From a virus: a stretch of DNA of 26,903 nt. The stretch lies in IMG/VR virus record IMGVR_UViG_3300008219_000075, positions 1 through 26,903 of that record. One strand, given 5' to 3'. Position numbers and translations under genes: made by a program. Shown one piece after another: positions 22,372-26,640 of the stretch. Below the pieces are notes generated by a model. That model was not told where the DNA came from. It did not search any database and worked only from the letters and a program-made list of their open reading frames with translations. Numbering within the stretch: position 1 is the stretch's first letter; each line of letters begins with the position of its first letter.

Positions 22372-23724
22372 TTACACCCACCGTTTCACAGAGATTTTGT
22401 TCCTGTGTTCTATATACCCATAGCCAAATCGGTCTACCAAGCCATATATCAAGGCTTTCACTCCGTGGTTGTTCTTATCTTCGGGCGTATCACCTACTAT
22501 ATTACCATCACGGTCAACTTTCCATCTATAGGCCCGTGTTTGCCCGTCGATGGGAGACGCAACGGAACCAAACTCAGACAGTACGCCCTTACACTTTGGC
22601 GAGAATGCTATCCGCGGAGAGTGGGTCTTAGAATCTATCTTCAGCCACCCTTTAAGCCGTTCTGTTCCCTCATTAATCCTGATTTTCTGGCTCGACAGGT
22701 ACAGCCCGGTCTGATCCAGCCACACCTCGGTAGGCGCAGCCATTGCCTGGTGCTGTGTTCCTGCTATATCTATAACTCCGAAGTTAACATCCTTCCACCA
22801 CTGTCTGCTCCGTGCTATATCTATAATCTCGTCCGTCACAAGTCCCTGTTCATATATCTCATCAATAACACAGATCTGTTCTCCTCTGACCTGCACGACT
22901 TCGACGGCGTATGCTCCTGCGTATCCCGGGTCCATCCACAGGTGGACGGGTGTTCCTGGGTCGTATTCAAGTTCGCTGATATGCATATCGGGTCGAAACT
23001 CCGGAAATACAAGTCCACGAGGTGGTGAAGGCTTGCCCTCAATGCGTTCCATAAAGAAGTCATCGCTTGATGCCTCCTTGAGTTTCAGAATCTCAGGATC
23101 GGTTGAGCCGCCTGGGTAAAGATGTGTGTTGGTATAGCTGGGCAGCGAGAAGGCTCTTGCCTCAGGTTCGGCCCCTGATGCCCATGCAGTATACATCTGG
23201 GGGTACCATCCAAGCGACCCTTCAAATGTACCGCCCAGAAACATCCATCCCCTCTTCGGCGCACATCTGCCTCGCAGCCTGAAGAATGTTTCCATATCAA
23301 GCTGAGACGCTTCGCATCCAATAATACCATCCGGGGCACGCATAGCAAGAGTCCTTGGATCCTTAGCGGACTTCGTCTCTATAAGCGTGCCGTCCACGAG
23401 TGTAATATGTCCGGGGTCTACACGTTTAGAAACCTCTTTAAGCACGCCAAGTTTAGCAAAGTCCTCTGCAAGGTAAGTAAACTCAGCCCGTGTTCTTTCG
23501 TAGTCTGCGGCGACGAGCCAGTAAAGCCCTCTGCCCTCCGTCTCCAGAAACCTGGCCAGCAGATACTTGGCCGCTATCATGCTCTTACCTGCCTGCTCCC
23601 CACCCGCTACGAGGTTAAAACGATACGGCGATGCAAGTATGATCTCCTGCGCAGGAGTCGGCGTAAAGTCCACTCTGCTATACAGGTACGACGTTAAGCT
23701 CTCCCGGTTTATCGCAGTAGTCAT
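22372..23724 (-). CDS. terL: Terminase large subunit (packaging ATPase/nuclease)
   Basis: A 450-residue terminase, the motor that translocates DNA into the capsid and cuts it. The ATPase part has Walker A GGEQAGKS (41-48) and a Walker B-like strand with the catalytic glutamate in GIIGCEASQLD (133-143); the aspartate normally before this Glu is Cys here. FLGGTFEG (162-169) fits the ATP-coupling region. The RNase H-like nuclease has its metal-binding acids at D265 (LWMDPGYAG), D288 (ICVIDEIYEQG) and D319 (GVIDIAG), followed by the late motif NNHGVKALIYGLVDRFG (418-434). Length and domain order are normal. The start codon overlaps the stop of the 99-residue gene (ATGA), so the two are translationally coupled. 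Confidence 0.93.
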   Translation of the reverse strand: MTTAINRESLTSYLYSRVDFTPTPAQEIILASPYRFNLVAGGEQAGKSMIAAKYLLARFLETEGRGLYWLVAADYERTRAEFTYLAEDFAKLGVLKEVSKRVDPGHITLVDGTLIETKSAKDPRTLAMRAPDGIIGCEASQLDMETFFRLRGRCAPKRGWMFLGGTFEGSLGWYPQMYTAWASGAEPEARAFSLPSYTNTHLYPGGSTDPEILKLKEASSDDFFMERIEGKPSPPRGLVFPEFRPDMHISELEYDPGTPVHLWMDPGYAGAYAVEVVQVRGEQICVIDEIYEQGLVTDEIIDIARSRQWWKDVNFGVIDIAGTQHQAMAAPTEVWLDQTGLYLSSQKIRINEGTERLKGWLKIDSKTHSPRIAFSPKCKGVLSEFGSVASPIDGQTRAYRWKVDRDGNIVGDTPEDKNNHGVKALIYGLVDRFGYGYIEHRNKISVKRWV

Positions 23725-24020
23725 TCACCTGCCTCGTTATTCCATAACGTAATAAACTCAGGTGTGCCCTCACCCATCCAGGCCCCTATAACATTGAACT
23801 CAAAATACTCTACCGCCATAGTATACGGATCATCATCTTCATCGTCCGATGTCATTTGCTCTGCGAGGATCTCAATACACTTATCCTTATCGTACACCAC
23901 TATGGGTTCTCGCCCAATTCTCTCGCTAATCCCCACAATTGCATCCTCAAAACCGTCTGCCAGCAACGCTTCCTCATTCCATTCTGATACCCATTCCTTA
24001 ATCCTGTCTATAGTAGTCAT
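23721..24020 (-). CDS. Conserved phage protein of unknown function (99 aa)
   Basis: A 99-residue acidic protein with the pattern DGFEDAIVGISERIGREPIV then VYDKDKCIEIL, an Asp/Glu-rich stretch (MTSDDEDDDPYTMA), then VEYFEFNVIGAWMGEGTPEF. I recall this arrangement (GFD.AIVG...R.G....VYDYD..I..L..... EAVEYFEFNV.GA..GE.TP) from many phages and some bacteria, always small and without a named function. The start overlaps the stop of the 27-residue peptide and its own stop overlaps the terL start (ATGA at both ends), so it is made together with terminase. A role in packaging is possible but unsupported. Confidence 0.75.
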   Translation of the reverse strand: MTTIDRIKEWVSEWNEEALLADGFEDAIVGISERIGREPIVVYDKDKCIEILAEQMTSDDEDDDPYTMAVEYFEFNVIGAWMGEGTPEFITLWNNEAGE

Positions 24021-24100
24021 CTCTTCCTTCCTACCTTATCCTGTTTTCTAGCCTTCTTACGGGCTTTCTTCATGGCCTTAATTGACTTCGGCTTCGCCAT
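24017..24100 (-). CDS. Tiny basic peptide (27 aa)
   Basis: A 27-codon frame starts at ATG 24100, with GAGGAAG six bases upstream, and stops in an ATGA overlap with the next gene. It lies partly over the 3' end of the small terminase gene in another frame. The peptide is extremely basic (MAKPKSIKAMKKARKKARK then QDKVGRKR), with 13 Lys/Arg in 27 residues. The good ribosome site plus the coupled overlap support it being translated; it may also serve mainly to couple translation of the 99-residue gene. No family recognised. Confidence 0.5.
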   Translation of the reverse strand: MAKPKSIKAMKKARKKARKQDKVGRKR

Positions 24101-24608
24101 TCTGCTTCCTCTTTAGAATCTCGTCTATCTGCTGGTCCACAGGAGTCTCAAAGTTCTTGGATGCCTGCGCCAGCTCCTTCGGATGCTCCCTCGCAGCCTT
24201 ACGCCATTCCTTAAGCAGATCCCGCGCAACCTCATCCTGAACAATCGCAGCCGGACGGTACTTATTAGGTAGGTTAGCATTCAAAAGCGTAATTGCCAAG
24301 ATGGGAACCTTCTTAACAGCTTCAGGGTCCATGACAATTCCGACAATAACTTCCTCCAGTCCCTCGGCAAACTCCTGCCGTGCATCCAGCACCCGCTCAG
24401 GAAACATAGGATCGTTAGCCATCCAGTCTTCATATGTTGACCGCACCACACCTGACTTCCGTAACCCATTAAGAATCGTACCCTTCTCCTTCAAACCCTT
24501 CAGAAAGTTGTCCTGGTTAGTCCGCATCTTCTGACGCTTTACGGACAGCTCCGCTAAACTCTTCTTCGTCTCATCATCATATTCATGCGGGATTCTTTTC
24601 CTTGTCAC
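24078..24608 (-). CDS. terS: Terminase small subunit (putative)
   Basis: A 176-residue protein at the head of the packaging genes. It has a charged N-terminus, a helix-turn-helix-like segment around residues 34-66 (FLKGLKEKGTILNGLRKSGV followed by TYEDWMANDPMF) of the kind used by small terminases to read the DNA start site, a central helix (QEFAEGLEEVIVGIVMDP), and a Lys/Glu-rich C-terminal helix that would oligomerise and contact the large subunit. The start is GTG at 24608 with GGAGG (24615-24619) six bases upstream. It is the first gene after the repeat-rich control region, which may include its own binding site. Assignment is by position and HTH pattern. Confidence 0.7.
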   Translation of the reverse strand: MTRKRIPHEYDDETKKSLAELSVKRQKMRTNQDNFLKGLKEKGTILNGLRKSGVVRSTYEDWMANDPMFPERVLDARQEFAEGLEEVIVGIVMDPEAVKKVPILAITLLNANLPNKYRPAAIVQDEVARDLLKEWRKAAREHPKELAQASKNFETPVDQQIDEILKRKQNGEAEVN

Positions 24609-24634: not shown

Positions 24635-24823
24635 ACTTTACTAATTACTTTACTTTACTACCCCCCTTAAGGGGGGTATGTAGTAAAGTAAAGTAATTAG
24701 ATACTTATATAAACTTTACTTTACCCTACTTTACCAAACTTTACCAAGTAAAGTAGCCCGTCTCAGGCACAAAGCAGTAAACTTTACCGGAATCTTACTT
24801 CATGTTACCCAGTAAAGTAAAGT
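24635..24823. repeat. Array of ACTTTAC/GTAAAGT motifs (iteron-like)
   Basis: Thirteen exact heptamers in 189 bp. Direct ACTTTAC begins at 24635, 24647, 24652, 24713, 24718, 24728, 24738 and 24781; inverted GTAAAGT begins at 24683, 24688, 24748, 24812 and 24817. At 24718-24747 three direct copies lie at exactly 10-bp spacing (ACTTTACCCT then ACTTTACCAA twice), and an inverted copy starts at the next 10-bp register, 24748. One-turn spacing suggests a protein binding one face of the helix, as at replication origins, terminase pac sites or repressor arrays. Which of these it is cannot be told from sequence. Confidence 0.85.
24641..24700. repeat. 20-bp inverted repeat around C6-TTAA-G6
   Basis: Perfect 20-bp arms at 24641-24660 and 24681-24700 flank a 16-bp palindrome CCCCCCTTAAGGGGGG (24661-24676); the right side has four extra bases, TATG. 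The element could extrude as a cruciform or fold as a very stable hairpin. It is not followed by a clear T-run for termination in the usual place, so an origin or packaging role is as likely as a terminator. Confidence 0.85.
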
Positions 24824-25102
24824 AACCGGGATCCTTTGTCAACGGAAGCCTTTAACAGCAGCAAATTGTCGAGGGTATCCCTACCATATCTCTTATTCTC
24901 TCAAGCCATACCCCCTCAATACACACTAACACAGCCTCCAGACGACAGTCGCAAGCTCCTGTCGCTGTCGGCCGTTGCAAGGTTTTTGGGTTCTGCGCAC
25001 TTGCGCCTAGATCCTTAAGCACCATGTTTCCCGCCGGGATCATTGGCGTTTAGTTTTGGTTGCTGATACTTGATGCTGTGCATGGCTTCACGATACAGCG
25101 AC

Positions 25103-25258: not shown

Positions 25259-25287
25259 TTGACATGTGGTTCATGATATGGTATCTT
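25259..25287 (+). promoter_or_regulatory. Sigma70-type promoter for the plus-strand early genes
   Basis: TTGACA (25259-25264, perfect -35), a 17-base spacer, then TATCTT (25282-25287) with TGG just before it, an extended -10. It points at the 70-residue gene about 100 bases downstream. The GATATGGTATC element at 25275-25285 overlaps the -10, so a protein bound there would be expected to block or modulate the promoter. Confidence 0.7.
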
Positions 25288-25729: not shown

Positions 25730-25876
25730 ATGGCAAATACCAATGGAACCAAAACACGTAAGGCACAAGGCACGACAAAAGCACAGGCAAAACGCGACAA
25801 CAGGCACGCCAAAATTAAAGCCAATGGAAAAGCCAAGCAACACATACGCCACACGTATAGTTGGGACGTGGCGTGA
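25730..25876 (+). CDS. Lys/Arg-rich small protein (48 aa)
   Basis: A 48-residue gene too short for common cut-offs. ATG 25730 is preceded by AGGAAGTGAG. The peptide begins MANTNGTKTRKAQGTTKAQA and is then dominated by Lys, Arg, His, Asn (KRDNRHAKIKANGKAKQHIR), ending TYSWDVA. Its stop overlaps the ATG of the next gene by one base (TGATG), so the two are translationally coupled. That overlap, and the lack of a good ribosome site for the next gene alone, support this frame being translated. Likely nucleic-acid binding; no known family. Confidence 0.65.
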   Translation: MANTNGTKTRKAQGTTKAQAKRDNRHAKIKANGKAKQHIRHTYSWDVA

Positions 25877-26640
25877 TGAAACTATTAACAATCGATAACG
25901 ACCCGAAAACGTCAAAGGGCAGGAAATTCGGCTATCTCACAGGCGTACAATACCTGGCACCCGAACAGCTAGCAAGTGAAGCACTAGGCCAATTGGTTAA
26001 CTTGTGTCCATTCGCTTCATTGGGCTGTGTTGGTGGATGCCTGAACACTGCTGGTCGTGGAGTATTCAACGATGTACAACAGGCTAGAATCAATCGCACT
26101 GTGTTGTACTTCAACGATCGTGCAACCTATTGGGTAAAACTAATCAAGGAAATTAAAGCTTTAGAGCGTAAGGCAAAACGTGAAAACTTAACTCCTGTGG
26201 TTAGGCCAAATGGCACTAGTGATATTAAATGGGAATCAACGCCTGTGGTAATCGATGGTATAAAGATTGCTAATAACATAATGGAACTATTCCCCAATGT
26301 GCAATTTATGGATTATACAAAATGGCCATATCACAAGCGACCGACTCACTCATTGCCTAGCAATTACGATCTAACATTCTCACGTTCAGAATCAAACGAA
26401 ATTGAAGCTTTAGAAAACTTGGCGAATGATAGGCGTGTTGCTGTAGTGTTTAGCAGTAAGAAAGACGATCCAATACCAGAGATATATACGATTAAAGCAG
26501 ATAACCAATTCGTGCCAATTCCAGTAGTCAACGGCGATATATCTGATCTCAGATTCCTTGATCCCACAGGCGTGATCATACACCTATACGCTAAAGGCAA
26601 AGCACGTAAGGATCAATCTGGTTTTGTGGTGCGAGTATAG
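25876..26640 (+). CDS. Phage gp88-like protein with three-cysteine cluster
   Basis: A 254-residue protein. I choose ATG 25876, coupled to the previous stop (TGATG), over upstream in-frame TTG codons. Recognisable blocks: KTSKGRKFGYLTGVQYLAPE (11-30), LCPFASLGCVGGCLNTAGRG (43-62; C44, C51, C55), VRPNGTSDIKWE (109-120), FMDYTKW (144-150), LTFSRSESN (166-174), VAVVFSS (188-194), VVNGDISDLRFLDPTGVII (217-235) and KGKARKDQSGFVV (240-252). I recall this set from a widespread phage family linked to mycobacteriophage gene product 88, whose function is not established to my knowledge. The C-x6-C-x3-C cluster followed by alternating strands and helices could hold an iron-sulfur or zinc site; that is inference. 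It lies in the early module. Confidence 0.75.
   Translation: MKLLTIDNDPKTSKGRKFGYLTGVQYLAPEQLASEALGQLVNLCPFASLGCVGGCLNTAGRGVFNDVQQARINRTVLYFNDRATYWVKLIKEIKALERKAKRENLTPVVRPNGTSDIKWESTPVVIDGIKIANNIMELFPNVQFMDYTKWPYHKRPTHSLPSNYDLTFSRSESNEIEALENLANDRRVAVVFSSKKDDPIPEIYTIKADNQFVPIPVVNGDISDLRFLDPTGVIIHLYAKGKARKDQSGFVVRV

Follow-up and report, generated by a model that had tools for sequence, protein, structure and literature searches.

An array of one repeated seven-base word and a single constant box beside it probably form the DNA-packaging initiation site (pac or cosB/cosN-like) of this virus, in the leader of its late operon. We give this reading, which rests on sequence comparison, a probability of about 0.6. 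The window, meaning the whole stretch of DNA that was analyzed, is a 26.9-kb fragment (26,903 bases) of an IMG/VR virus. The first-pass annotation had left three candidates for the array: a replication origin, a packaging site, and a regulator array. The packaging site is now the best supported of them, by its co-variation with the HTH domain of the small terminase subunit (TerS), by the single cluster, and by the box beside the late operon, while the regulator and the origin have lost ground.

The array and its surroundings

The features of the region are as follows.

24635..24823, no strand: array of 13 ACTTTAC/GTAAAGT sites in clusters spaced 5/10 bp, with dyads (counts, resampling, family phasing); proposed TerS-binding part of the packaging site
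24641..24700, no strand: long perfect inverted repeat at the terS end of the array (sequence; equivalent hairpins in many relatives)
24837..24842, minus strand: TTGACA, a −35-like hexamer between box and array (sequence)
24860..24914, minus strand: conserved 55-bp box GGGGTATGGCTT-N24-ACCCTCGACAATTTGCT, single copy, with the extension TTAAAGGC to 24848; proposed constant core of the packaging site
24078..24608, minus strand: terS, small terminase subunit, 176 aa, GTG start, Sf6-gp1-like (phrog_4044)
24414..24542, minus strand: part of terS coding for residues 23-65, three N-terminal helices including the HTH (AlphaFold model); hypervariable, co-varies with the word
23721..24020, minus strand: 99-aa ORF between terS and terL, phrog_13182 (unknown function); missing or replaced in many relatives
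22372..23724, minus strand: terL, large terminase subunit (phrog_2)
25259..25287, plus strand: sigma-70-like promoter TTGACA-17-TATCTT, 10/12, for the divergent early genes (consensus match alone)

ACTTTAC/GTAAAGT was present in 17 exact copies in the window, 13 of them within 24635-24823. Chance would give 2.52 copies in the whole window, and the maximum over 100 shuffles was six. When the 430 bp upstream of terS were resampled with a first-order Markov model, the commonest 7-mer reached at most four copies, against the 13 observed. The earlier count of 13 exact copies in both orientations within 189 bp was therefore confirmed, and the direct copies at 24718, 24728, and 24738 and the inverted copy starting at 24748 were found where they had been placed. 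Elsewhere in the window and in relative G001, just four to five scattered copies of ACTTTAC occurred, which is close to chance.

Direct copies in the array were spaced 5 or 10 bp apart, and dyads also occurred. At its terS end, two 21-bp arms (24641-24661 and 24680-24700) form the perfect inverted repeat, with ACTTTAC/GTAAAGT sites on both arms and CCCCCCTTAAGGGGGG at its center (24659-24678). The first-pass annotation was right about the array and had missed this inverted repeat, the box at 24860-24914, and the family-wide nature of the arrangement. The Rfam search returned no family reaching its gathering score. An intrinsic terminator was discarded as an explanation of the C/G hairpin, which was absent from the terminator scan and is followed by no T-run. 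Within the array region, GTGCCTGA lies at 24763-24770 on the minus strand, and the similar TTTCGTGCCTGA was seen in L008, L011, and L064, which have other words.

Turnover of the word among relatives

About a hundred related viruses had the same layout with different array words. The IMG/VR relatives, mostly with a TerL 67-100% identical, carried the array at the same place upstream of terS, and in these relatives as in the window it adjoined the terminase genes. It was present in most relatives having sufficient upstream sequence, with a word specific to the lineage: ACTTTAC, ATAACAT (dyad ATAACATGTTAT), TTACTAGTAA, GTAATATTAC, AATTACA/TTACATGTAA, ATCCTTA, and others, to which a search with the box pattern added TGAAACA, CATGTA, ATTTCA, AATTGCA, and TTGCAAA. 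Close relatives with the same terS and no array, named beforehand as the finding that would count against the first-pass reading, were not encountered. Some relatives, for example L080-L083, had no clear array. Searching with TerS reached no further than the ACTTTAC lineage and its closest kin; the wider family came from the TerL and box searches.

Up to ~18 copies of one word were counted per array in the family, and each genome had one cluster in one place. In five relatives (G002, G003, G004, G006, and G007; 25-37 kb) the dyad form of the word was restricted to the array. The far end of many arrays forms a hairpin with the word in its arms and usually a C-run/TTTA or TTAA/G-run at its center. 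Searches against 50,697 annotated phages gave no match to the DNA of array and box and just two weak matches to TerS, and literature searches returned no description of such arrays.

The one-turn phasing noticed in the window was borne out across the family. We pooled the distances between sites of the same orientation from one locus per word class (21 classes), and they peaked near multiples of one helical turn. The power at 10.5 bp was 0.267, compared with a mean of 0.077 and a maximum of 0.175 for random placements (0/2000 reached the observed value). Because the distances are phased at 10.5 bp, the data support binding of the sites on one face of the DNA.

A constant box beside the array

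The array is located just downstream of the 55-bp box, whose family form is GGGGYATGGCTT-N24-ACCCNYGMCARANTTTT, usually followed by TAAA(A/G)GC; the last bases of the window's copy deviate from this pattern. Our search pattern tolerated a gap of 22-26 bases, and all of the matches (50/50) were 55 bp in total, with the gap fixed at 24 and its sequence variable. No genome searched for the pattern had more than one copy, and the strict pattern overlooks some lineages with a diverged form. The box has inverted GGGTAT/ATACCC arms, and it also occurs in relatives without a common array word.

In 45 of the 46 newly fetched loci, terS lay downstream of the box. In most loci ~20-25 bp separated the box from the start of the array, also when terS was 1-2.3 kb downstream. 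This was so in L252, L255, L256, L258, L267, L276, and L279, where other genes put terS 1-2.3 kb from the array and the array was still on the side of the box; the exception in distance was L252, whose array began ~160 bp past it. Since the array stays near the box when terS is displaced, we assign it to the box rather than to the ribosome-binding region of terS. In L255, L267, and L243, which also have terS displaced downstream, small proteins with an HTH (identified by eye) are encoded directly after the array.

The word changes together with the HTH of TerS

The best fold matches of TerS were 3hef, 4dzp, and 4dzj, with a probability of 1.00 and ~18% sequence identity in the fold match. The likeness to gp1 of Shigella phage Sf6 lies in the best of these matches (3hef) and in the Pfam family PF20901, found in 17 of the 74 members, and the assignment by profile is weak; the low identity (~18%) sets the two proteins apart. 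Sf6 gp1 is a ring-forming TerS with its HTH domains on the outside. Three helices (residues 23-42, 45-52, and 56-65) were modeled with high confidence, with a pLDDT >95 in the HTH, and the model predicts an Sf6-like protein with an N-terminal HTH and a helical oligomerization core. The family comparison showed that the N-terminal helices are hypervariable and the middle part conserved. We know of no comparable repeat array reported for the pac site of Sf6.

Similarity of the words followed the identity of the TerS HTH in a partial Mantel test controlled for the TerS C-terminus and TerL (r = 0.346, 0/2000, n = 57), and again in an enlarged partial test (r = 0.275, 0/1000 permutations, n = 73). 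The TerS C-terminus and TerL contributed little to word similarity (0.07-0.10). The 16 word classes required 15 changes on the TerS tree, which is the minimum, and 17 on the TerL tree. With the TerL tree needing so few more, descent explains much of the word distribution, and a few exchanges carry the extra signal.

Such exchanges are visible in near-isogenic pairs, most clearly in L041/L042. L041 and L042 share 96.6% DNA identity over 3.2 kb and 98% identity in TerL, yet their TerS and arrays differ (HTH 38%; GTAATA vs. ATAACA). L012 and L007 are 94% identical in TerL and 93% in the C-terminal part of TerS, with an HTH identity of 73% and the words TAAGGA and CTTTAC. As a counter-case, L016 and L064 have a common word despite an HTH identity of just 38%. 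Individual residues of the recognition helix varied too much to be associated with the word column by column; columns 40, 83, 49, and 70 did best (numbering of the window-type TerS). L041 also has an additional 173-aa ORF between terS and terL.

The specificity of the site thus appears to change together with the HTH domain of TerS, possibly in part through linkage. As TerS adjoins the array, hitch-hiking within a single recombination cassette could account for part of the co-variation.

Other readings of the array

Structural genes follow terL on the minus strand, and the early genes run in the opposite direction from ~25.4 kb, so the array lies in a divergent gap between early and late genes. 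This position, with TTGACA at the upstream edge, would suit an array of late-operon operators recognized by some phage regulator that is not TerS, for instance a MerR/excisionase-like protein of 74-120 aa or a sigma-region-4-like protein. Such a regulator would switch late genes on or off and provide superinfection exclusion according to word type. Dimeric repressors typically bind dyad sites, and a MerR-like HTH protein with a variable helix was present in 13 of the 24 genomes or fragments. However, no second cluster of sites was seen at the early promoter or elsewhere, and the identity of the MerR-like protein tracked the word less well than TerS did: for 12 genomes the partial correlation was 0.51 (1/1000) with TerS and 0.20 (51/1000) with the MerR-like protein. 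With seven genomes the latter gave r = −0.09. Because it tracked the word less well than TerS and a search of the 47-kb contig G014 did not find it, the protein was set aside as reader of the word. For the sigma-region-4-like protein there were too few sequences for a comparison with the word. The promoter consensus scan, moreover, found no good late promoter. We consider a non-TerS regulator unlikely. Dispersed repressor operators of the lambda or stoperator kind were rejected, with a single cluster per genome.

Some observations concern the genes and promoters themselves. TTGACA at 24837..24842 is a possible candidate for the late-operon promoter; its −10 is poor and overlaps the array, and the consensus scan did not report it. 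Two sigma-70-like consensus matches were found, with 1.6 expected. The early genes start with a GP88 (PF17338) protein (25861-26640), which has relatives in Mycobacterium, Pelagibacter, and jumbo phages. The small MerR/excisionase-like HTH protein with the variable helix is encoded in the early operon of 13 relatives (for example at −7637 from terL in G003 and at −9885 in G015). A 170-212 aa protein with a C-terminal sigma-70 region-4-like HTH, which may be a phage transcription factor, is encoded in the early operon of G002, G003, G004, G007, and L259 (L121-L128, L259). Other early genes, assigned at least in part by eye, were a pair in G001 (L129) and G015 (L288/L289) encoding a VWA-like protein and an AAA protein (MoxR/CbbQ-like by eye), and, in G007 (L125), a gene for a C5 cytosine methyltransferase of 400 aa (by eye) at the operon's far end.

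The array also resembles iteron origins and phage operator arrays in its dyad sites repeated at one-turn phase. If its sites are iterons that an initiator reads, with the hairpin beside them, the array would be a replication origin; the early region has a conserved RepA-like helicase. In G014, G015, and G016 the minimum of the cumulative GC skew lay ~0.6-1.5 kb from the box; in G003 and the window it lay close to the box. This turn coincides with the switch in gene orientation; G002, whose contig begins inside the late region, had no skew turn. Beside the array there is usually terS and no initiator gene, and the identity of the RepA-like protein vs. the word (r = 0.64, 15 pairs, uncontrolled for kinship) fails to separate from descent. 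Unlike iteron origins or operators, the array is a single cluster tied to packaging genes, and no initiator or repressor was seen to track the word. An origin is, in our judgment, less probable still than a regulator.

A role chiefly in TerS autoregulation, the array being the operator and packaging starting elsewhere, would agree with its position immediately upstream of terS in the window and with the repression by SPP1 TerS of its own synthesis (reported in the title of a reference in PMC6316719), but it is very improbable given the seven loci with terS 1-2.3 kb off and the array beside the box.

Comparison with known packaging sites

The closest known kinds of site are P1 pac, SPP1 pac, and lambda cosB. 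P1 pac spans 161 bp; PacA/PacB bind its seven TGATCA/G hexamers, which form two groups (PMC10028697). It is alike in that one short word is clustered at the TerS gene, with sites flanking the cut region and a reader of the TerS type (PMC10028697). It differs from our arrays, which have up to ~18 copies of one word with 10.5-bp phasing and a constant box on one side, lie outside the terS coding sequence, and change their word across the family. Hexamers of the P1 GATC type were not found, as no array word contains the methylation site GATC.

The pac of SPP1/SF6 (pacL-pacC-pacR) is similar in overlapping promoters, the ribosome-binding site, and the start of terS, and in its direct repeats (PMC6316719, PMC4737164). 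Its TerS is likewise a ring with HTH domains and is reported to be a repressor of its own synthesis (PMC6316719, PMC4737164). Three pairs of direct repeats are present in SPP1, whereas here one dominant word tracks the HTH; the DNA-binding domain of SF6 TerS showed little preference for the pac direct repeats (PMC6316719, PMC4737164).

In the cos sites of lambda, 21, and N15 (cosQ-cosN-cosB), a constant cut core is followed by variable TerS sites and then terS, as in our proposal (PMC4669245). Lambda and 21 have cosN and cosQ in common; their R sites and the recognition helix of TerS differ and are exchanged as a left-end cassette (PMC4669245). In the lambda type the R sites number no more than three and come with an IHF bend; the window has 13 sites and an Sf6-like TerS, and so departs from cosB in the number of sites. 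Packaging sites read by terminase, and TerS/site cassettes exchanged between phages, are already known. The novelty is in the many phased copies of one word, in a constant box with rigid spacing, and in the wholesale turnover of the word within one family.

How the site would work

From the layout and from P1, SPP1, and lambda, we infer TerS binding, cutting, and autorepression as follows. Viral DNA would be marked by a TerS ring or multimer, several of whose HTH domains would occupy successive sites along one face of the helix. TerL, recruited by TerS, would be positioned or would cut at or near the constant box, which is probably read by TerL itself, conserved across the family, or by another fixed factor. 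Packaging would then proceed into the late genes or across the genome. The array is placed between the −35-like hexamer and the start codon of terS, so bound TerS may also repress its own operon, as reported for SPP1. Turnover of the word would stop co-infecting relatives from packaging each other's DNA.

In the assembly data, contig starts did not cluster at the box and many contigs ran across it; a cos with fixed genome ends was therefore left unsupported. For most TerS proteins, in vitro binding to pac is weak and unspecific (PMC9611059, PMC4737164), and against this a strongly repeated TerS site is unusual. About a dozen phased TerS sites, with a word replaced wholesale along with the HTH and a constant 55-bp core, might constitute an identity code for packaging, and the first natural set of sites showing a TerS ring reading by several HTHs on one face; we propose this tentatively.

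A review of 2022 described TerS-DNA recognition as still unclear and controversial after four decades (PMC9611059). The difficulty comes mostly from the known pac sites being degenerate and weakly bound. Dozens of TerS/site pairs occur naturally in this family, their words strongly repeated and clearly distinct while the framework stays constant; if the array is a packaging signal, these pairs form a natural test set of the way such signals are recognized. The near-isogenic pairs L012/L007 and L041/L042 make specificity swaps, footprinting, and cryo-EM feasible, and the signature of box plus array is a way to locate the packaging start in metagenomic phages of uncultured hosts.

For the host of this virus, the sole genome matches to TerL were in MAGs of Chloroflexota/Dehalococcoidia (52-54%; L226-L228). 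Both array and box were absent from these three, which are thus useful for a guess at the host alone. Taken with the source samples, presumably deep-ocean metagenomes, the matches make a SAR202-like host plausible.
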